Assembly: GCA_003252075.1 (NCBI GenBank)
Contig: QKDO01000013.1
Span: 1 to 44,730, forward strand
Direction: 5' to 3'
Source: Nitrospirota bacterium
GTDB lineage: Bacteria > Nitrospirota > Thermodesulfovibrionia > Thermodesulfovibrionales > UBA6898
Length of the DNA stretch: 44,730 nucleotides
The position numbers and the translations under genes were made by a program. Of this stretch, positions 4,701 through 31,876 are shown piece by piece (the first letter of the stretch is position 1; each line of letters starts with the position of its first letter). A model generated the notes under the pieces. The model was not told where the DNA came from and did not search any database. It was given only the letters and a program-made list of their open reading frames with translations.

Positions 4701-5964
4701 GATCTTCTCCGTTCAGGTCATAGAGTCTTTTGATCAACGCTATCAGCACGTCTTTGTCCTCGGCATCGTTCTTCAGGGCGACCGTCGGCGCATGTATCAG
4801 CTTGTTGATGATCGCGCCCGCCATCCCCTCGATCGCCTTGCGCTCCTTCTCACCGAGGGATGGGAAACGGTTAAAGAACCTCTCAAGTTCGTCCTTTCTG
4901 ATTGTCTCAGCCCGTTCGCGAAGCGCGATCACCGTGGGGACTGAATTGAGGGTCATCATCCATCTGCGGAATGTCTCGATTTCATCCTCAACGATCGCCT
5001 CGGCTTTTGCTGCCTCTTTCTGCCGCTCGGAGATGTTCGATTCAACAACACCCTGAAGATCATCCACATCGTAGAGGTAGACATTGTCCATATCGTTTAT
5101 CCCGGGATCGACGTTCCTCGGCACGGAGATATCAATAATGAATACCGGTTTCTGCTTTCGCTCCTTCATCACTTTCTGCATATGCTCTTTGTGCAGAACA
5201 AACGTGGAGGCCCCGGTCGAGCAGATCACAATGTCCGTATGCACGAGCTCTGCAGGAAAATTCTCAAACCTGATCGCCCGGCCGTTGAACTCACGTGATA
5301 GCTCGCAGCCGCGCTCGTACGTCCTGTTCGCCACAATGATATCCTGTACGCCATTGTTCATCATATGTTTTGCCGCCAGCTCAGCCATCTCGCCTGCGCC
5401 AAGGAGCATAAAGGATTTACCCGCAAGGTCGGTGAATATCTTTTTCGCCAGTTCGACCGCGGCAAAGCTGATCGAAACAGCGTTTTCCGCAATCCGCGTC
5501 TCCGTCCTCACCCGTTTGGCAACTGAGATGGACTTCTTGAGCAGCCGGTTCAGGAGAACGCCCGTGGCCTTCTTCTCTAGGGCAAAATCAAAGGCATCCT
5601 TCAGCTGCCCGAGGATCTGCGGTTCACCGACAACCATGGAGTCGAGACTCGATGCAACGCGGAAGATATGTTTTACCGCGGCCATGTCTTTGTGGAGATA
5701 GAGTGCGGTGTCAAGGGAATCGCGCCTGACATCAAAGAACACCACGAAAAAATCCTTCATGTCCGCGTATGCCTTTTCCACATCCTGCACCTGCAGATAG
5801 ATCTCAACGCGGTTGCAGGTAGATATAATGACCGTCTCCCGGATACCCGGGATCTCCCTTATCTTCTGAAGGCCCTCTTCGAGCTTCGGTCCGTTGAAGG
5901 CAAGCTTCTCCCTGAGCTCAACATCCGCTGTTTTATGGTTCAATCCAACAACAGCTATCTTCAT
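4687..5964 (-). CDS. hemA: Glutamyl-tRNA reductase
   Basis: Reduces glutamyl-tRNA to glutamate-1-semialdehyde, the first committed step of the C5 pathway to 5-aminolevulinate, using NADPH. 425 residues. Seen: VVGLNHKTADVELREKLAF, the catalytic Cys50 in IISTCNRVEIY, SMVVGEPQILGQLKDAF, the Rossmann loop MLLGAGEMAELAAKHM near residue 186, FIIDISVPRNVDP, and the C-terminal helical dimerisation domain. Its ATG overlaps the ccsA stop (ATGA); no close Shine-Dalgarno is visible, so translation is probably coupled to ccsA. hemL and hemB are not in the window. Confidence 0.97.
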   Translation of the reverse strand: MKIAVVGLNHKTADVELREKLAFNGPKLEEGLQKIREIPGIRETVIISTCNRVEIYLQVQDVEKAYADMKDFFVVFFDVRRDSLDTALYLHKDMAAVKHIFRVASSLDSMVVGEPQILGQLKDAFDFALEKKATGVLLNRLLKKSISVAKRVRTETRIAENAVSISFAAVELAKKIFTDLAGKSFMLLGAGEMAELAAKHMMNNGVQDIIVANRTYERGCELSREFNGRAIRFENFPAELVHTDIVICSTGASTFVLHKEHMQKVMKERKQKPVFIIDISVPRNVDPGINDMDNVYLYDVDDLQGVVESNISERQKEAAKAEAIVEDEIETFRRWMMTLNSVPTVIALRERAETIRKDELERFFNRFPSLGEKERKAIEGMAGAIINKLIHAPTVALKNDAEDKDVLIALIKRLYDLNGEDHEKE

Positions 5965-6776
5965 TTGAACGAATGGTACCCCTTAAGCAGCAGGTTCACG
6001 CCGAAGAAGGTGAAGAGTACGGCACTAAAGCCGATGATCGAAAGGATCGCCGCCCGCTTCCCTCTCCATCCCTGTGTCAGTCGAACATGGAGGACAAGGG
6101 CATAGATGAACCAGGTGATCAGTGACCAGACTTCCTTCGGGTCCCAGCGCCAGAACGTGCCAAGACTGCTTTCCGCCCAGAGGGAGCCGCTTATGATCGC
6201 CAGCGAGAGAAAGGGAAACCCGATGGTAATGAGCCGGTAGTTCATCTCATCAAGAATCTGAAGACTCGGAAGCTTTTTGAAAAGACCGCCGAGATGTTTG
6301 GACTTCACGTAATGCTCCTGGATGAGGTACATGATGCCGACACCGAAGGCCATGGCAAAGGCGGCATCCCCGATAAATGCAAATGCAGTATGGATGAAGA
6401 GCCATGAACTCTGGAGAAGCGGGCTCAGATTTTCGATCTTTCTCGGCAGGATGGACGAGGTGAGCATAAGGATAAAGACCACCGGCATGATGAACGAACC
6501 AAGCAGGCCGATTCTGTAGCGGTACTCAAGGAAGAAAAAGAGCAGCACGATGCACCATGAGAAAAAAGAGGTCGCTTCGTGGAGGCTGGCCGTCGGCATA
6601 TGACCTGAGATGATATACCGTGCGGCAATATTGGCTGTATGGAGCGCAAACCCCGCGATCACAAGACCGACCATAATCCGTGAGGTGGCCTTCGATCCCT
6701 TGAACAGCTCAAGCAGACAGACGATCGTTGCGGCAAAGTAACAGGTGAGCGCAAGTTCGAACAGCATCGTTTCCAT
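5961..6776 (-). CDS. ccsA: Cytochrome c assembly protein, CcsA/ResC-like (HemX-type)
   Basis: Polytopic membrane protein, about eight hydrophobic segments in 271 residues. The tryptophan-rich signature GSLWAESSLGTFWRWDPKEV near the C-terminus is the heme-handling WWD-like motif of the CcsA/CcmC/CcmF family. It should help deliver heme to apocytochrome c on the outer face of the inner membrane (system II). Placement directly before hemA-hemC, as for HemX in other bacteria, links heme synthesis and heme attachment. The start is taken at ATG 6776, which overlaps the upstream gene's stop (TGATG), rather than the in-frame GTG at 6785. A CcsB/ResB partner is not in the window. Confidence 0.88.
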   Translation of the reverse strand: METMLFELALTCYFAATIVCLLELFKGSKATSRIMVGLVIAGFALHTANIAARYIISGHMPTASLHEATSFFSWCIVLLFFFLEYRYRIGLLGSFIMPVVFILMLTSSILPRKIENLSPLLQSSWLFIHTAFAFIGDAAFAMAFGVGIMYLIQEHYVKSKHLGGLFKKLPSLQILDEMNYRLITIGFPFLSLAIISGSLWAESSLGTFWRWDPKEVWSLITWFIYALVLHVRLTQGWRGKRAAILSIIGFSAVLFTFFGVNLLLKGYHSFK

Positions 6777-6946
6777 CAGAAACACCCGAGCTGGCAGCTC
6801 TTGATCCTGATGCCCAGCTCATTCGCGGCTTTCCCTACCTCGGGATAGGGAAGCTTCAGGTCCTCAGCTATTTTTCTGGCGGTTTCACAGGAAAGTTTTC
6901 CCTCAACCGCCTTCTTCAGCATCTCTTGTCTCAGCTCGTCTTTCAT
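6776..6946 (-). CDS. Small conserved-looking protein ending in CQLGCF, between mobB-like gene and ccsA
   Basis: 56 residues from an ATG at 6946 with GAGGATGGTAC directly upstream; the frame is open 27 bases further but has no better start. It overlaps the end of the mobB-like gene by 44 bases and its TGA overlaps the ccsA ATG. The sequence looks like a small helix-turn-helix fold (KLSCETARKIAEDLKLPYPE, then VGKAANELGIRIK) followed by a C-terminal SCQLGCF with two cysteines. The pattern suggests DNA or metal binding. I do not recognise a named family. Tight embedding in the operon makes it likely to be real. Confidence 0.72.
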   Translation of the reverse strand: MKDELRQEMLKKAVEGKLSCETARKIAEDLKLPYPEVGKAANELGIRIKSCQLGCF

Positions 6947-24893: not shown

Positions 24894-27800
24894 CTATTGT
24901 TTCTTCATATGCAAAATCTTGTTTATCGGTTTGGGCGGCACTACAAGCGACAGTGCCCCGGCGGGCGGCAAGCCCTGAATCATGCCACTCCGCCGCTGAT
25001 CTTTCTCCGTAAAGGCCGTAGCAAGGTCAACTTCCTCAATGGCGCCCGTAGAAACCTGCACGATCGCCGTGCCGCGCAAAGTTCCCGAGCCTACCAGCGT
25101 GCCGCCGGTGTCGTAGCGAACTGCCCATATGTGCGAGGCCCCACCATACTCGCAGACATCTGCTGTCGGGCTGGACGAGGTGAAAAAGACGGCGCCGTTG
25201 AGCGTGGCAAGCGGGTCAGTCACAATCCGCTCTGAACGAAATACAGCCGTGGGATCTGAACAACTTATTGTTGCACCGCTGAGATCAACACATTGATCAA
25301 GGTTGATGTACCACCCGTCAGGGTCTGTTGATCCTGCTGCGGTGGCAGCATCACCAAGAATGCCGGATGAGACCGATGCCGTACAGGTCGTGTCGATGTT
25401 CGCAGGATTGCTGCCGGTCAAGGGGAAGCAGGGCTCCTTTATCCCATAGAGACGCCTCTGTGCGGTCGGGTCGTCGATGAGGTCGTTGATCTTGTAGAAA
25501 TATCTCCCGGCACCAAAAAAGAGCCGCAATTCCTTTTTCTTCAGGTTCTGCAATTTGCCCACGCCCGAAGTTACCGGCCCGATGTTGCTGATCACGGTAG
25601 AAACAGCCCATTGGCTCGGATCAAGGCTCTGCTTGGTCAAAAGCCGCTTCACGCCTCCAGCATTCCAGCCATCCAGAATATTGTACTGAGTTGAAGATGT
25701 TGGGGCAGCGTCCTTCCAGGGGGAGTCGATCGTGGCGACCTTGGTCGCACCGTCATAGGCAATGATCAGTTTCGTCTCATGGTTAAGGTCATTCCGGTGG
25801 ACGAAATTTCCCTTATAAAAATCGTTGGTAGAAGAGGCGGCAGCGGCAAGTGTTATAGTATTGGCACTGCCGCCCTGGGCAGTCACTGTAGCCCCCAGGG
25901 GCGCCCTTTCGGTATAGCCAAAGTAAAGAGCATCATCGGAATAGTTCATGTCAAAATCAATAGATGAATTCATGAGGTTCCCGACGAAAGCAGCAGTTCC
26001 GCCTGCATCGATGGTCCGTAAGGGTGTTCCGGTCTTGAGATCGAGTACCACCAGCATTGCACTGCTCCTGCTCAGGTGTTGCTTTGTGCCGGTAAATTGA
26101 TGGGTGGTCGGACTGACGTAACCGGTCGGTCCGGACCCGAGGACAACGTACCAGCGGCCGTTCGAGAACGTATCCTTCAGACAGGTCTCCCCGGCTGGGC
26201 AATCAGAATCAGTAGTGCAGGCGGTCGTGGTCGTCGTAGAACAGTATTTGTTGTTGATCCTTACGATTCCGGGCCCTGTTGTCGAGAGCCCGAGCTCCGG
26301 ATCGGCATATTCCCATAAGAGCGTCGGACTTGCAGGGTCCGTCACATCCATAGCAAAGTATGAGGAATATCCGTAATTGCTGATCGGTGTCTTCATACAT
26401 TCGGTGCAGGTTGAAGACAGGTCTTCGCATGCGCCGCCCAGGCGCATGCTGCCGATAAGGACCGTGCGCCAGCTGTCTTTGGATTTTCTGCATTTCCAGT
26501 AATCCGAATAGGCCGTAGAGTTGCAGTTGCTGTCAGGCTGATCAGCCGTGCCGTCGTCGTTCAGGTCAGGATCGATGGCAATGCTTGCGTCGAAGAGGTA
26601 CGGTGTTGCATCGATGTAATAGAGATGGCAGTAATCCCTGTCAGCCAGGTACTTCAGATACGGCAACGCGTGTTTCGGGATGAAGGCCCAGATTTCCTTG
26701 CCCATATCCGCATCGGTCAGGCAGGACTCACCTGTGGGACAATCTGCATTGTCACGGCATGCCTTGGTCGTGGTGACCGAACAGGCCTTCCCCAGGGAGG
26801 CCTTTGCATTGGGGTCCCTATACAACCCGAGTTTGCCGAGTTTGAATGCATGGAGCATGCCGTCGTTGGCGCCGCTGAACACGGTACCCCGGTTCGTATA
26901 ACCTGTCGAGTTCAGATAATTCCGGTAGGTTGTGTCCCGATAGGATTTATCGTACAGGTTCAGTGGTATCCATGAAGAAATCTTTGGCGTCGAATTGACA
27001 ATGTCGCCCAGTTTCCAGGTGTTTGTGGAGCCGCTCACGGTTACCGTACGGCTTCTTATAGCAGCCCCGTCGATTGCATCACTGTCATTGACCACATTGT
27101 CTCCGTTCAGATCATCGACTCCCCTGATGTACTGGATAAGGTTTGCGGTAGCCGTCACGTTAAGGAAGGGCGAAATAGCCGCATTTGTCGTAATAAAATT
27201 GTCGAGCGTAGCATTGTCATCAGTATTCGTATAGATCACACGGTCACTTGCAGCCCTCGCATGGAGCTTCCGTCCAGCTTCCCAGAGGTACTGCACGCTG
27301 TCCATGGGCACATTCGCCGTGGTCGGTGTGACAGAATCTCTGCTGCCGTTGCCGTCGGCATCAGCAAAGAGATTCGCTGTAGTCTCATTCGTGACCTTCG
27401 AAAAGGTAAAGTCAATGATATAATCACTGCCCAGCTTCAGCACTCTGTCGTTGTCCGTGTCTTCTCGAATGCTGCTGAACCCGAGGTTTGGATCGAGATA
27501 GTACCACATATTCTGCAGCACGCCTGTCCAGGTCACGTCGACTGTTACGAATTTACGCTTCGGATAGAACAGTGCCTGGATGAGGTTCGCTCCGGAACCC
27601 TCGCCGGAGGCGAGCACCGAGGCAGCCGTGCCGGAGGCGGTCTTTGCCGAGATCTTGGTAAGCGCCTCGCGGAGCGCTATCTTCAACTGGCCAGGACTTT
27701 TGGGATCGTAAAGTGTTGTACCACCGTTGACCGCTGTGTTGTTCATGAGCGTCTTCGGGTTGCACTCGTTCGTCAGCCCGGTATCAGGTCCGGTGTACAC

Positions 27801-30185
27801 CACATAGGTCGTGATCTGTTCGCTGGCGTTCGCCGGTATTGCGGTAGATGCAGTAACCGTATCAAAAGTCTTGATGTTCCTGTGCTTTGCCAGCCATGCA
27901 AGGTCATCGAGATTCCTGCTTCCCTCATACGGCGGGCAGGTAGCGGTCTGGCCGGTCTGGCCGTCACCGTCGTTATAGAGCGCCACAAGGCTGTTCACTG
28001 CCGGCCGCTTGTCGGCCGTGGGCTGGCCGTCTGATATGAGCAGGATATTGTTGTCCTGGCATCTGTACTGAGAGGGGTTATTGTTACTCGCAAAGTCATG
28101 ATCGCCGTTGATCCTGAGGTCTGTCCTGCTGGTGCCCGGGACCGAGGGGTCGCCATAGGCATCCGTGCGCGCATAGTAGCCAATAGCGTTGTAATAGGCT
28201 TCAGCAAAGGGTGTCCAGTTTGTTCCCTTGAGGTCGTCAATCGCCCGTACCAGTCCGGAATTGTGGTCTCCCGTAAGAGGGCTGATATAACTGAGAACCT
28301 GGGCGCCGTCGAAATTGCTTGTTCCTACTGTTGTCGCATCGCATGAGGTAAATGCCGATTCAGGGTTTGGACAGTCCAGTTTTGTGGAGCAGGTCATATT
28401 TGCATCAGAGGAACAGGTCTTGGGGCACGGCACCGGCGTAATACAGAGACCGCCCCCGGTGCAGCTGGCATCGCTGGTGCAGGTGGTCAAGAAATCGTTC
28501 GAACAGACCTTCCGACCGCACTCGGTTACCGACCCGTTGAAATTAAAACTCATCACACCCATACGGATGAGGCCGGAAAACTGCTGCACAAGATTTACGG
28601 GCTGCTCAGGTGATGCCGAGAGGTCCTTGATCCTTACCGTGAGCGTTTCGAAGGGCTGCCCCAACTGTCCTTCAATGCCCATGTCACTGATGATCGCCGG
28701 GAGGTTGTCGAACTCCGACGTGTCCGACGGCAGATCCGTCGGATCGGTGACCGGCGGAACCGTAATGTCGCCGCAGAATTTCTCATGCTGCTTCAAGATG
28801 CAGGCATCGCCGCAGTCAGTGCCGATGCAGCCGGTCCAGGTACCTCCGGGGGACGCGCCAACATAGCAGATACCCGTATACGCACTGCTGCAGAGATAGG
28901 CAGGGTTGCCGGGCCTGACCGCAGCCGGTCCGTTAATGCAACTGCCGCTTGGACAGTCGGCAGCGCCGGTGCAGAGTCTTCCGTCATTGGTCCCGCCGTC
29001 GCAGGTGAAGAGTTCGTCATAGATGTCCGTACATTGATTAATTACCGTGTTCTTCTCGTCAATGCCCAGCGGTGTGCCTGTTTTTAATGCCCAGCAGGCC
29101 TGGATTGTCTGGTTGAAGGTCGCCTGCGTCTTCGATGCGGTCGTAGCAGTCGTGGTAATGCACGGCCCTTCGTCGTTGTCACAGTCGGCGTTATTGACAC
29201 AACTCGTTCCGGCAGCGACCTTCTCCGGGTCGCCGGCAGTGCATTTCTTCACTCCGCCACCCATGCTCGTACAGGTGCCGGTACCGCCGAGTATGCAATC
29301 AGAATTTTTTGTACAGGTCTTCGAAACATTCTGCGCGCAATAGGCGCTCCCCAGGGTAGTTGAGGAAAGACAGTCGTCAACCGCCTTCTTGATGTCGGCA
29401 TTGCTCGCTGCAGGATCCTGGTAGGCATTGATCGCAGCCTGACAGAGTCCCTGATTGTAATCGCCGAAATAGAGCTTGAGATAGGTCTGTCCGCCGGGTG
29501 ACGGAGCAGCCGGATTCTCCGGATGACGTTCCCCCTCGACGCCCATAGTGATGCCCAGGGAGGTATTCGTGCCTCCTTCCACATAATCGGCCGTGAGGGC
29601 CTCCTTGACGAACTTGCGGCCGATGCAGCCCCGAGTTTCGGGCAGAAGTATGTGGTTCACGGGATCATATTTGCCCCCGGTCAATATCTGCTTCTGGACA
29701 TCGAACTTCGAGCTCGTGAGCCAGTTCAGATAATTCCCTTTCGCAACAAACTGGCTAAGGGTGCGGGGAGGACCGGAACTCATATTTATAAATAACTGGT
29801 CTGCAATGCCCTTGCAGGAAGAAGATGCACAAGTCGGCACTCCTGTATTTATCTCGTAAAAATATTCGCCTGTCAGATCATACTCATAATCTGTGGCACT
29901 GTCGAAATATCCTGCATAGGGCGTCGCACTGGCATAGGTCTGGTCGTAGCAGTAAGCCCCCTTTCGTGTGGATGTTCCGTTGTCCACATATTGTAAATCG
30001 TACATGCTCGCGGAATTGTCAAGAATCAGAAGGAGGTTCGGCGTAATACCGCCTACAATAAAAGGAGGGGTCATGCAATAGTCTGTCATGGTTGCTGATT
30101 CGACGTCCCCAACAGGCAGAATCATCAGGCAGAAAGCGATTAAAAACAGGACAGCAATCGTAAGAGGTGATTTCGGAGACGACAT
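24894..30185 (-). CDS. pilY1: PilY1-like type IV pilus tip adhesin
   Basis: 1763 residues, secreted. Signal peptide about 1-32 (LTIAVLFLIAFCLMILPVG). A von Willebrand A-type MIDAS start DNSAS (56-60) follows after PFIVGGITPNLLLIL, as in PilY1 tip adhesins. Many cysteine modules of the form C-x-TC-x-DC-x-G-x-C lie near residues 290, 325, 405, 570, 600, 1150 and 1330. The C-terminal 650 residues resemble the PilY1 beta-propeller, with calcium-type DxDxDG loops (DADGNGSRD, DLNGDNVVND). It should stand at the pilus tip for adhesion and surface sensing. Start ATG 30185 has GAAGGGAG upstream; a longer reading to 30281 lacks a signal peptide. Leads the minor pilin operon. Confidence 0.9.
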   Translation of the reverse strand: MSSPKSPLTIAVLFLIAFCLMILPVGDVESATMTDYCMTPPFIVGGITPNLLLILDNSASMYDLQYVDNGTSTRKGAYCYDQTYASATPYAGYFDSATDYEYDLTGEYFYEINTGVPTCASSSCKGIADQLFINMSSGPPRTLSQFVAKGNYLNWLTSSKFDVQKQILTGGKYDPVNHILLPETRGCIGRKFVKEALTADYVEGGTNTSLGITMGVEGERHPENPAAPSPGGQTYLKLYFGDYNQGLCQAAINAYQDPAASNADIKKAVDDCLSSTTLGSAYCAQNVSKTCTKNSDCILGGTGTCTSMGGGVKKCTAGDPEKVAAGTSCVNNADCDNDEGPCITTTATTASKTQATFNQTIQACWALKTGTPLGIDEKNTVINQCTDIYDELFTCDGGTNDGRLCTGAADCPSGSCINGPAAVRPGNPAYLCSSAYTGICYVGASPGGTWTGCIGTDCGDACILKQHEKFCGDITVPPVTDPTDLPSDTSEFDNLPAIISDMGIEGQLGQPFETLTVRIKDLSASPEQPVNLVQQFSGLIRMGVMSFNFNGSVTECGRKVCSNDFLTTCTSDASCTGGGLCITPVPCPKTCSSDANMTCSTKLDCPNPESAFTSCDATTVGTSNFDGAQVLSYISPLTGDHNSGLVRAIDDLKGTNWTPFAEAYYNAIGYYARTDAYGDPSVPGTSRTDLRINGDHDFASNNNPSQYRCQDNNILLISDGQPTADKRPAVNSLVALYNDGDGQTGQTATCPPYEGSRNLDDLAWLAKHRNIKTFDTVTASTAIPANASEQITTYVVYTGPDTGLTNECNPKTLMNNTAVNGGTTLYDPKSPGQLKIALREALTKISAKTASGTAASVLASGEGSGANLIQALFYPKRKFVTVDVTWTGVLQNMWYYLDPNLGFSSIREDTDNDRVLKLGSDYIIDFTFSKVTNETTANLFADADGNGSRDSVTPTTANVPMDSVQYLWEAGRKLHARAASDRVIYTNTDDNATLDNFITTNAAISPFLNVTATANLIQYIRGVDDLNGDNVVNDSDAIDGAAIRSRTVTVSGSTNTWKLGDIVNSTPKISSWIPLNLYDKSYRDTTYRNYLNSTGYTNRGTVFSGANDGMLHAFKLGKLGLYRDPNAKASLGKACSVTTTKACRDNADCPTGESCLTDADMGKEIWAFIPKHALPYLKYLADRDYCHLYYIDATPYLFDASIAIDPDLNDDGTADQPDSNCNSTAYSDYWKCRKSKDSWRTVLIGSMRLGGACEDLSSTCTECMKTPISNYGYSSYFAMDVTDPASPTLLWEYADPELGLSTTGPGIVRINNKYCSTTTTTACTTDSDCPAGETCLKDTFSNGRWYVVLGSGPTGYVSPTTHQFTGTKQHLSRSSAMLVVLDLKTGTPLRTIDAGGTAAFVGNLMNSSIDFDMNYSDDALYFGYTERAPLGATVTAQGGSANTITLAAAASSTNDFYKGNFVHRNDLNHETKLIIAYDGATKVATIDSPWKDAAPTSSTQYNILDGWNAGGVKRLLTKQSLDPSQWAVSTVISNIGPVTSGVGKLQNLKKKELRLFFGAGRYFYKINDLIDDPTAQRRLYGIKEPCFPLTGSNPANIDTTCTASVSSGILGDAATAAGSTDPDGWYINLDQCVDLSGATISCSDPTAVFRSERIVTDPLATLNGAVFFTSSSPTADVCEYGGASHIWAVRYDTGGTLVGSGTLRGTAIVQVSTGAIEEVDLATAFTEKDQRRSGMIQGLPPAGALSLVVPPKPINKILHMKKQ

Positions 30186-30473
30186 AACATACTCCCTTCC
30201 GGTTGTTCTCGCCTTATGGCATATCGATTTCATGATTATAACTCTAGCAATTTCAAGACCAATGCGCACTACTGACAACAAACAGACTAACCAGCTGAAT
30301 ATGAATAAGAATTATTCCTGGCCACCGGCGAGCCTACCATACGCACAGGGTAAATTGGGTAAGAGATTACATAGTATAGGAAAGCCCTTACATACTTCGT
30401 GCTGCTTTCCGATGCATCGCTACGGCGCGTGGCACCACTAGCAACCCCTTTCCGGCTTTGGATAGGGCTTTGA
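30186..30473. other. 288-base spacer with long-range inverted repeat
   Basis: This spacer upstream of pilY1 and downstream of the secreted coiled-coil gene holds no convincing gene. AAAGCCCT (30381-30388) and AGGGCTTT (30464-30471) form a perfect 8-bp stem enclosing 75 bases that include a CGATGCATCG palindrome. The segment could be a structured RNA or a remnant of something mobile. One minus-strand frame is open through most of it but lacks a start codon and a recognised product. Confidence 0.35.
30235..30261 (-). promoter_or_regulatory. Candidate pilY1 promoter (sigma-54-like or sigma-70)
   Basis: On the minus strand a sigma-54-type -24/-12 pattern TGGTCTTGAAATTGCT (30261-30246) has GG and GC at the correct 12-base register, though TGGT replaces TGGC. 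Just downstream is a perfect TATAAT (30240-30235) that could instead be a sigma-70 -10 with a weak TTGGTC -35. Transcription from either would give a leader of roughly 45-60 bases before ATG 30185. Confidence 0.4.
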
Positions 30474-31073
30474 TCAGTGCTGCAAAATCCTCTCTTCTTC
30501 AGAATTCAGCTTTTTAACCGCTTCGTTAAAGCCCTCTATCCTCATTTCAAGATCAGCAATGCGTTTTTTTATCTCATCAATCTGTTCCTGATTTTTCACA
30601 ACGCCGGTGTTTGTAACATCCTCATACAACTGATCGCGGTCCGTGGCCAAGCGGTCGCGTTCAGCCTGCAAGGCAGTCTTCCTCTCATTGATCTGATCAA
30701 GCTGTTTGGCCTGCTCGGGCGTGAGGCCGGTTATCAGCCTGCCCTCGCCGGGCTGTCCGGGCACTTCCTTTTTCTCTGCTTCCGGCCCCCCGGAGGGCTT
30801 CTTCTCTTCAGCCGTTGCATCCGGCTCGGGTACTGCCTCCCCGCTGAGGCTCTCTCTCCGTATGCTCACCTCCCTGATGCTCGCTATATCCTTCCGCGGG
30901 ACCGCCATGGTGCCACCCTGCATGTCGCAGACCATCTTCCCGTTTACTACCCTGCAAAAGTCGGCGATGAACGATCTGCCGTTCTTCAGGGTCACCCTCA
31001 CCTCTGCAGGGGACAATGCCGGCATCAGGTTCAGGAACACGGCAGCAAAAATCAGCGAATGCACAGTCCTCAT
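30474..31073 (-). CDS. Secreted coiled-coil protein of unknown function
   Basis: 199 residues. Signal peptide about 1-23 (MRTVHSLIFAAVFLNLMPAL); then a small beta domain (VRVTLKNGRSFIADF, with two cysteines in DFCRVVNGKMVCD) that may be disulfide-bonded; a proline/glutamate-rich linker; and a C-terminal coiled coil (from about 120, repeated QL/K/E/R heptads). ATG overlaps the stop of the DsbC-like gene (ATGA), so the two are co-expressed; it could be that protein's substrate or partner. No family recognised. Confidence 0.75.
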   Translation of the reverse strand: MRTVHSLIFAAVFLNLMPALSPAEVRVTLKNGRSFIADFCRVVNGKMVCDMQGGTMAVPRKDIASIREVSIRRESLSGEAVPEPDATAEEKKPSGGPEAEKKEVPGQPGEGRLITGLTPEQAKQLDQINERKTALQAERDRLATDRDQLYEDVTNTGVVKNQEQIDEIKKRIADLEMRIEGFNEAVKKLNSEEERILQH

Positions 31074-31876
31074 TTTGTCTCTCCTTTTTTGGGAGGATTG
31101 GTCACAAGCTCTATGAGTGTTTTTGCATCTTTCACCCCTCTGACGACCAAGCCGTCGGGAAGCACCAGGGTCGGCGTCCCCGTTATGTCGAGTTCCCGCG
31201 CAATCCTGATGTTCGCCTCGACCTCCGGTTTGTTGTCGCAGTCAGGTTTCGGTATCTCCTTCTTCGCAAAGTTGTCCTCGAGCCATTGGAGCGAGCCCTT
31301 GCAGAGAATGCTCTGGGATTTCCAGAATGCATCGGGGTGGAAGCTGAGCGGCATAAACTTCAGAAAGAACGCAATGTCTTTCCGTTCTGCAACGACCTTC
31401 TTCATCTCCTCGTGCGCCTTTGCACAGTAGGGGCAGTCAGGGTCGGTAAAGACCGCCACCTTATAGCGCGCGTCCTTTTCGCCGAGCACCAGTGCCGGCT
31501 CAAGAGGGATTTTCGAAGCGTCCACGTACCGGGCCGGCTGCTGGTTCAGCTGTTCGAAGGATTCCTGCGTCTTGTTCAGCCCTGCCTCCACCTCAATAAT
31601 GGGGCCCGCGATTACATGGTTCTTCGAGAAACCGACATACATGATACCGTTCTGCCCCTTGTCGTCGACCACGACTTCCCAGAGCCCCTTGACCGGACTC
31701 ATTTTTACCTCAAGAGCCTTTGCCTCCAATGCGCCGAGCTTGTTGAGGATCTTCTGCGCTTCCTCAGTGCTCAGGCTGTGGCACTTCGCACAGTCTTCTT
31801 CACATCCGCCAAAGGCCCAGGCCTGTAACGGGAGCAGGAACAGCACACATACCCCTATGATGAGTACACGCTTCAT
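31070..31876 (-). CDS. DsbC-like thiol-disulfide protein with CXXCH heme c motif
   Basis: 268 residues, periplasmic. Signal peptide about 1-21. The mature N-terminus contains CEEDCAKCH: Cys29-Ala-Lys-Cys32-His33 is a CXXCH heme c attachment motif. A DsbC-type N-terminal domain follows, then a thioredoxin fold with the redox pair CPYC (148-151) in FTDPDCPYCAKAHEE and the cis-proline stretch ITGTPTLVLPDG near residue 235. DsbC/DsbG proteins shuffle disulfides; the extra heme site would make this a redox protein that may take electrons from cytochromes. Ribosome binding site AAAGGAG. It may help fold the cysteine-rich PilY1, whose operon is next along. Confidence 0.85.
   Translation of the reverse strand: MKRVLIIGVCVLFLLPLQAWAFGGCEEDCAKCHSLSTEEAQKILNKLGALEAKALEVKMSPVKGLWEVVVDDKGQNGIMYVGFSKNHVIAGPIIEVEAGLNKTQESFEQLNQQPARYVDASKIPLEPALVLGEKDARYKVAVFTDPDCPYCAKAHEEMKKVVAERKDIAFFLKFMPLSFHPDAFWKSQSILCKGSLQWLEDNFAKKEIPKPDCDNKPEVEANIRIARELDITGTPTLVLPDGLVVRGVKDAKTLIELVTNPPKKGETK

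Follow-up and report, generated by a model that had tools for sequence, protein, structure and literature searches.

The stretch of DNA analysed here (hereafter the window; 44,730 nucleotides of contig QKDO01000013.1, from a Nitrospirota bacterium of the UBA6898 lineage) carries on its minus strand a gene for a DsbC-like protein, followed by genes for a 199-residue protein and a long PilY1-like protein (Table 1). Pfam places the DsbC_N dimerisation domain at residues 38-103 of the DsbC-like protein (6e-9) and Thioredoxin_2 at residues 134-256 (9e-16), both above their cut-offs. When the protein was compared to PDB sequences using phmmer, DsbC chains were the best matches, and a Foldseek search with its predicted model matched Salmonella DsbC with an E-value of 4e-13. 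The VIA fold alignment to DsbC reached Z 17-18 across ~145 residues, mainly within the catalytic domain, with the N-terminal motif region described below lying outside. Against the NCBIfam equivalog for E. coli DsbC (NF008129) the protein scored 71.8 bits, so far under the cut-off of 215 that by this measure it is a relative and not an orthologue; the only PHROGs match, to thioredoxin, was weak. A scan of named genomes yielded six near relatives, the nearest of the named genomes being Nitrospiraceae MAGs with 96% identity to UBA6898. Judged by its domain architecture, the gene encodes a complete DsbC-type protein, and its Cys192 and Cys213 presumably form a structural disulfide, by analogy with E. 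coli DsbC.

Table 1. Features of the dsbC-like locus and its surroundings, in window coordinates.
Feature	Position	Strand	Basis or remark
dsbC-like gene, ATG start, 268 aa	31070-31876	minus	ORF; Pfam; PDB DsbC chains by sequence and fold
Signal peptide, residues 1-21	31814-31876	minus	by-eye reading of the sequence
Extra Cys25, extending the motif to CxxxCxxCH	31802-31804	minus	found in 68/95 motif-bearing rows
C29-A-K-C32-H33, CXXCH heme-c-type motif	31778-31792	minus	N-terminal to the DsbC dimerisation domain
DsbC_N dimerisation domain, residues 38-103	31568-31765	minus	Pfam
F83-S84-K85, tending to accompany the motif	31622-31630	minus	row counts
Active site C148-P-Y-C151	31424-31435	minus	sequence; Sec-P-[YF]-C in many sister genes
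Cys192	31301-31303	minus	kept in 95/95 motif-bearing rows
Cys213	31238-31240	minus	kept in 95/95 motif-bearing rows
Downstream gene, 199 aa	30474-31073	minus	signal peptide and coiled coil by reading; two Cys
PilY1-like protein, 1795 aa, 61 Cys	24894-30281	minus	Pfam T4P_PilY1 7.7e-4, below cut-off
PF01578 gene	5961-6785		Pfam; overlaps hemA, then hemC

After a signal peptide ending in AWA, the protein continues with FGGCEEDCAKCHSL, DsbC_N and then the thioredoxin-like domain, which contains FTDPDCPYC. The by-eye signal peptide and C148-PY-C151 together describe an exported protein with a CxxC redox site in a thioredoxin fold, and the retention of CPYC in that fold bears out what the sequence-only reading had reported. 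That reading had also taken CEEDCAKCH as the mature N-terminus; CXXCH is indeed found there, but with the signal peptide cut by eye between AWA and FGG the mature protein more likely starts with FGGCEEDCAKCH. The motif sits just upstream of the DsbC_N match, and CXXCH occurs in no other of the 29 window genes listed. False CXXCH matches are known to come from proteins of the thioredoxin family (PMC4429474), and E. coli-type DsbC carries CGYCH at its active site (Salmonella chain, sequence alignment). Within the 107-row clade defined below, a His directly after the active-site CXXC was found in none of the rows (0/107). As the CXXCH of the window protein is separate from the active site, it is neither the usual thioredoxin-family false match nor the active site read twice.

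The sequence-only reading had named conservation of CXXCH among close homologues as a test of its proposal. Relatives were collected in one search that found them in 55 of 61 genomes (E<=1e-20), a second across 245 genomes of the phylum, 90 of which contained them (E<=1e-25), the scan of named genomes and two plasmid records. The resulting 126 distinct rows, a sample of the listed matches, represent Nitrospirota and two plasmids. Eleven distinct rows outside the active-site pattern were read by hand and are absent from the tree and from the entropy counts. The other 115 rows were aligned, in an alignment that omits L056 and L069, and rooting on eight rows judged to be canonical DsbC defined a clade of 107 rows, in which near-identical sequences were kept (nine pairs are more than 90% alike). 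CXXCH is present in 101 of the 126 rows: at the same place in 95 of the 115 aligned rows and in 6 of the 11 hand-read ones, the other five (L143, L061, L124, L118, L080) being without it. The motif is conserved across the order, in other families of the class and, beyond the class, in family f23, so that the proposal withstands this test. The seven rows of the family outside the class (L111-L117) read CLDCH, CASCH, CIDCH, CMQCH, CKECH, CRQCH and CIDCH. Across the 95 motif-bearing clade rows C29, C32 and H33 are invariant, with zero entropy, while the first x position is nearly random (3.34 bits) and the second carries 1.75 bits.

Loss of the motif is nearly always complete. Twelve of the 107 clade rows are without it, of which 11 have lost Cys, Cys and His together and one (L057) reads CSKCY, so that 96 aligned clade rows retain both cysteines and all but one of these have the His. 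The remaining eight motif-less rows among the 115 are the canonical DsbC rows used for rooting. Seven changes of motif state are enough to explain the best tree, and the well-supported branches force only one. Neither of the two DsbC copies of G014, a single-contig genome that is 91% complete, has the motif, which is thus dispensable, and the plasmid-borne DsbC genes of Pelobacter (L079) and Manganitrophus (L080) are also without it. In two places (L037:5001-5803, from MnB_6, and contig C196 of G001) the reading frame of a dsbC orthologue is broken in two close to the active site, by either sequencing error or decay; the active-site context in L037 is APDCPFC.

An exported protein in which Cys, Cys and His are invariant and the x residues are free shows the pattern of heme c. 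A covalent heme c site would be expected to be conserved in this way, whereas a simple pair of thiols would hardly account for it. From these features we conclude that the window protein is a DsbC variant and probably a c-type hemoprotein with covalently bound heme. A distal ligand is less apparent: across residues 34-119 neither His nor Met forms a column that is kept together with the motif, and the closest candidate is a Met in 35 of the 95 rows. Five-coordinate and Lys-ligated forms of heme c exist. An aromatic residue at position 83 is found in 91 of 95 motif-bearing rows and 3 of 12 motif-less rows, and K85 in 90 of 95 and 6 of 12; the Fisher test applied to these counts takes no account of kinship. 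D182, in the catalytic domain, ranks above both (66 of 95 versus 0 of 12), an illustration of how strong a signal common descent by itself can give. The idea that residues 83, 85 and 66 covary with the motif was set aside, as the well-supported branches contain one independent pair and leave the test empty. A lipidated Cys25, as in a lipoprotein, was likewise set aside, this residue being missing in 27 of 95 rows and its context variable.

In the predicted model, which is of modest quality (pLDDT 74, built with six sequences), the motif falls on a short helix preceding the dimerisation domain, with pLDDT <50 at the motif and over residues 1-10. The motif and CPYC are ~115 residues apart in sequence, and the motif sits at the dimerisation-domain end of the protein, which in known DsbC dimers is far from the active sites. 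Direct tunnelling between heme and dithiol within one chain therefore looks unlikely, and electrons would have to pass between molecules or via a partner.

Many sister copies differ at the active site itself. Of the 107 clade rows, 36 have an in-frame TGA in place of the first active-site Cys codon, and 29 of these 36 also have CXXCH. A SECIS-like hairpin follows the TGA at about the same distance at all 14 of the TGA sites inspected, and the region folds better in the TGA genes, with a mean z of -2.56 in 35 of them compared with -0.50 in 70 Cys genes. SelB was found above cut-off in 58 of 61 genomes, the window genome among them. By these codon and hairpin features these sister copies, about a third of the family, are selenoproteins with a UPYC-type site. 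The window genome itself holds a second DsbC-like gene on contig C142 (L002:1444-2256), which encodes Sec in FDDPDUPYC and has its own CSTCH, and a third (L003) without the motif. Three genomes of the same genus (L006, L007, L008) have a CXXCH/Cys copy beside a motif-less Sec copy. One Sec paralogue, L061, has the active site U-P-F-S, without a resolving Cys and without CXXCH.

Downstream of the dsbC-like gene, the start codon of the 199-aa gene overlaps the dsbC stop, and a homologue of this type lies downstream of dsbC in 16 of 19 extended loci, making it a probable operon partner. No Pfam family was found for the 199-aa protein. The two cysteines of its family are kept in 16 and 18 of 25 aligned sequences, with Tyr or Phe at both positions in five and gaps in the rest. 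Upstream of dsbC, rel is present in 15 of 19 extended loci. A PilY1-like gene is clearly downstream in five of the 19 (L151, L152, L153, L157, L162), and in L155 and L169 the match is weaker or lies farther away; a family-wide PilY1 operon was rejected on this count. In the window, PilW-like and PilX-like genes also lie downstream, and the Cys-rich PilY1-like protein, as a pilus-tip protein, would be a likely client of the isomerase. No cytochrome-assembly genes were found among the frequent neighbours of the dsbC loci that were read. In another family, the motif genes (L026, L031, L032, L089 and related) stand, by reading, beside LysM-type, segregation protein B-like and sigma-54 response-regulator or kinase genes, and not beside rel.

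Heme attachment would also need maturation genes, and the sequence-only reading had cited a 'ccsA' gene in the window. A PF01578 gene is indeed present; its support for the heme is weak, as it stands in a hemA/hemC context 24 kb from the dsbC-like gene. Its order with hemA and hemC also fits a gene of the HemX type, and it may be HemX-like instead of a cytochrome assembly gene. PF01578 genes occur at three places in the window genome, the other two being on contigs C87 and C49, and the C87 gene adjoins a weak ResB match. ResB-type maturation genes were found in all 61 genomes searched, which is better support for heme than the window 'ccsA' gene; in the window genome the ResB matches are weak, the main copy seemingly missing from the assembly. 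With ResB in 61 of 61 genomes, a search for genomes that have the motif and no maturation genes offers no contrast and was dropped. The window genome also has 24 multiheme-type CXXCH domain matches.

The usual reductant of DsbC presents a different picture. In E. coli, DsbC is reduced by the DsbD_N domain. A search for this domain was negative in all 61 genomes and positive in the control genomes of E. coli, Caulobacter and Bacteroides, and the missing DsbD-alpha makes another source of electrons plausible. DsbD_TM/CcdA-type genes are present in 59 of the 61 genomes, so that an ordinary thiol reductant acting via CcdA may exist.

Taken together, these findings are best explained by a periplasmic DsbC-type isomerase that would bear one covalent heme c on a short N-terminal extension, a reading to which we assign a probability of roughly 0.6 on the sequence evidence. 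The heme would be loaded by the CcsBA (system II) machinery, and the dimerisation domain and CPYC thioredoxin domain would shuffle the disulfides of exported proteins, the Cys-rich PilY1 encoded nearby being the likely client. Redox upkeep of the isomerase is, in E. coli, the job of DsbD-alpha; here the heme might most readily provide a one-electron port, which periplasmic cytochromes would use to set the redox state of the isomerase or to restore it. Such coupling between heme and disulfide site is a tentative addition that we consider rather doubtful, and we are similarly hesitant about the broader picture, in which DsbC of Nitrospirota without DsbD-alpha would have gained a heme c of its own and become an isomerase driven by periplasmic cytochromes, these setting the redox state of its CPYC site or, in sister copies, of the Sec-containing UPYC site.

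A variant that shares the heme claim would have heme c attached and uncoupled from the dithiol, in a structural, sensing or heme-carrying role such as stabilising the dimer or aiding cytochrome assembly. The conservation of the motif, its location at the dimerisation-domain end and the absence of a conserved distal ligand are all compatible with this, and we regard it as a serious possibility, if short of an even chance; the neighbourhood speaks against it, as the frequent neighbours in the loci read include no cytochrome-assembly genes and the conserved ones are rel, the 199-aa gene and sometimes PilY1. Readings without heme have to account for the histidine. If C29 and C32 were a second redox dithiol feeding CPYC in a relay of the DsbD type, with the His tuning its pKa, the protein would be in keeping with its family of thiol oxidoreductases, with the CSKCY of L057, which has no His, and with the CcdA-type genes. 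But such a relay would need no His, and the invariant H33 thus speaks for heme: it is found in 95 of the 96 two-Cys rows, and loss is otherwise all-or-none. Active-site dithiols, moreover, usually conserve their x residues, and those of the motif are free. We therefore consider the relay unlikely.

The three cysteines and one histidine of CxxxCxxCH in the window protein could instead bind a metal (Zn, Cu or Fe-S). Cys25, however, is absent from 27 of the 95 rows, in all of which C29, C32 and H33 stay constant, which disfavours such a site and leaves it improbable. That the motif arose by chance, or that the gene has no function, can be given almost no weight: when the mature protein was shuffled 20,000 times CXXCH did appear in 58 cases, and some relatives are without it, but its retention across 95 rows, and across genera, families and the class boundary, removes chance as an explanation.

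If a heme c is present on the isomerase, it would provide a one-electron route from the respiratory chain to disulfide chemistry, and respiration would be directly coupled to the repair of protein disulfides. In the usual view, periplasmic isomerases receive their electrons from DsbD two at a time, by thiol exchange. The setting is a large environmental phylum whose disulfide system has been little studied, and the natural set of proteins with and without the heme motif, and with Cys or Sec, would allow one comparative experiment.

A literature search among open-licence papers brought up none that describes a DsbC carrying a heme motif of its own apart from the active site. One report lists a dsbC family protein among the CXXCH proteins of Idiomarina FeN1 (PMC9230427, in extract); the CXXCH counted there is probably the active-site CGYCH, whereas the motif of the window protein is separate and N-terminal. 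The DsbG-like selenoprotein NF041057 (UxxC) resembles the Sec sisters in having Sec at the first active-site position, as described in the available portions of PMC13188914 and PMC9312934, in whose searched text the word 'heme' does not appear. This family is absent among the listed NCBIfam matches of two Sec paralogues (E<=0.001) and of the window protein (E<=1). Geobacter GSU2937+GSU2936, a selenocysteine cytochrome candidate, combines CXXCH with a TGA-coded residue in one protein; according to the extract of PMC1914089, it differs in having five heme motifs and a C-terminal part unlike characterised proteins, and there it is not described as Dsb. With monoheme c-type cytochromes the window protein shares export, a CXXCH with free x residues and maturation machinery, but it has neither a Pfam cytochrome domain nor a conserved distal ligand, and its heme is a predicted one. 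Compared with DsbC of E. coli and Salmonella (1eej, 4i5q), finally, it comes from a group whose genomes lack the DsbD_N partner; it has in common with them the signal peptide, DsbC_N, the thioredoxin-like CxxC domain and the two further cysteines, and it departs from them in its N-terminal CXXCH extension and in having CPYC in place of CGYCH.
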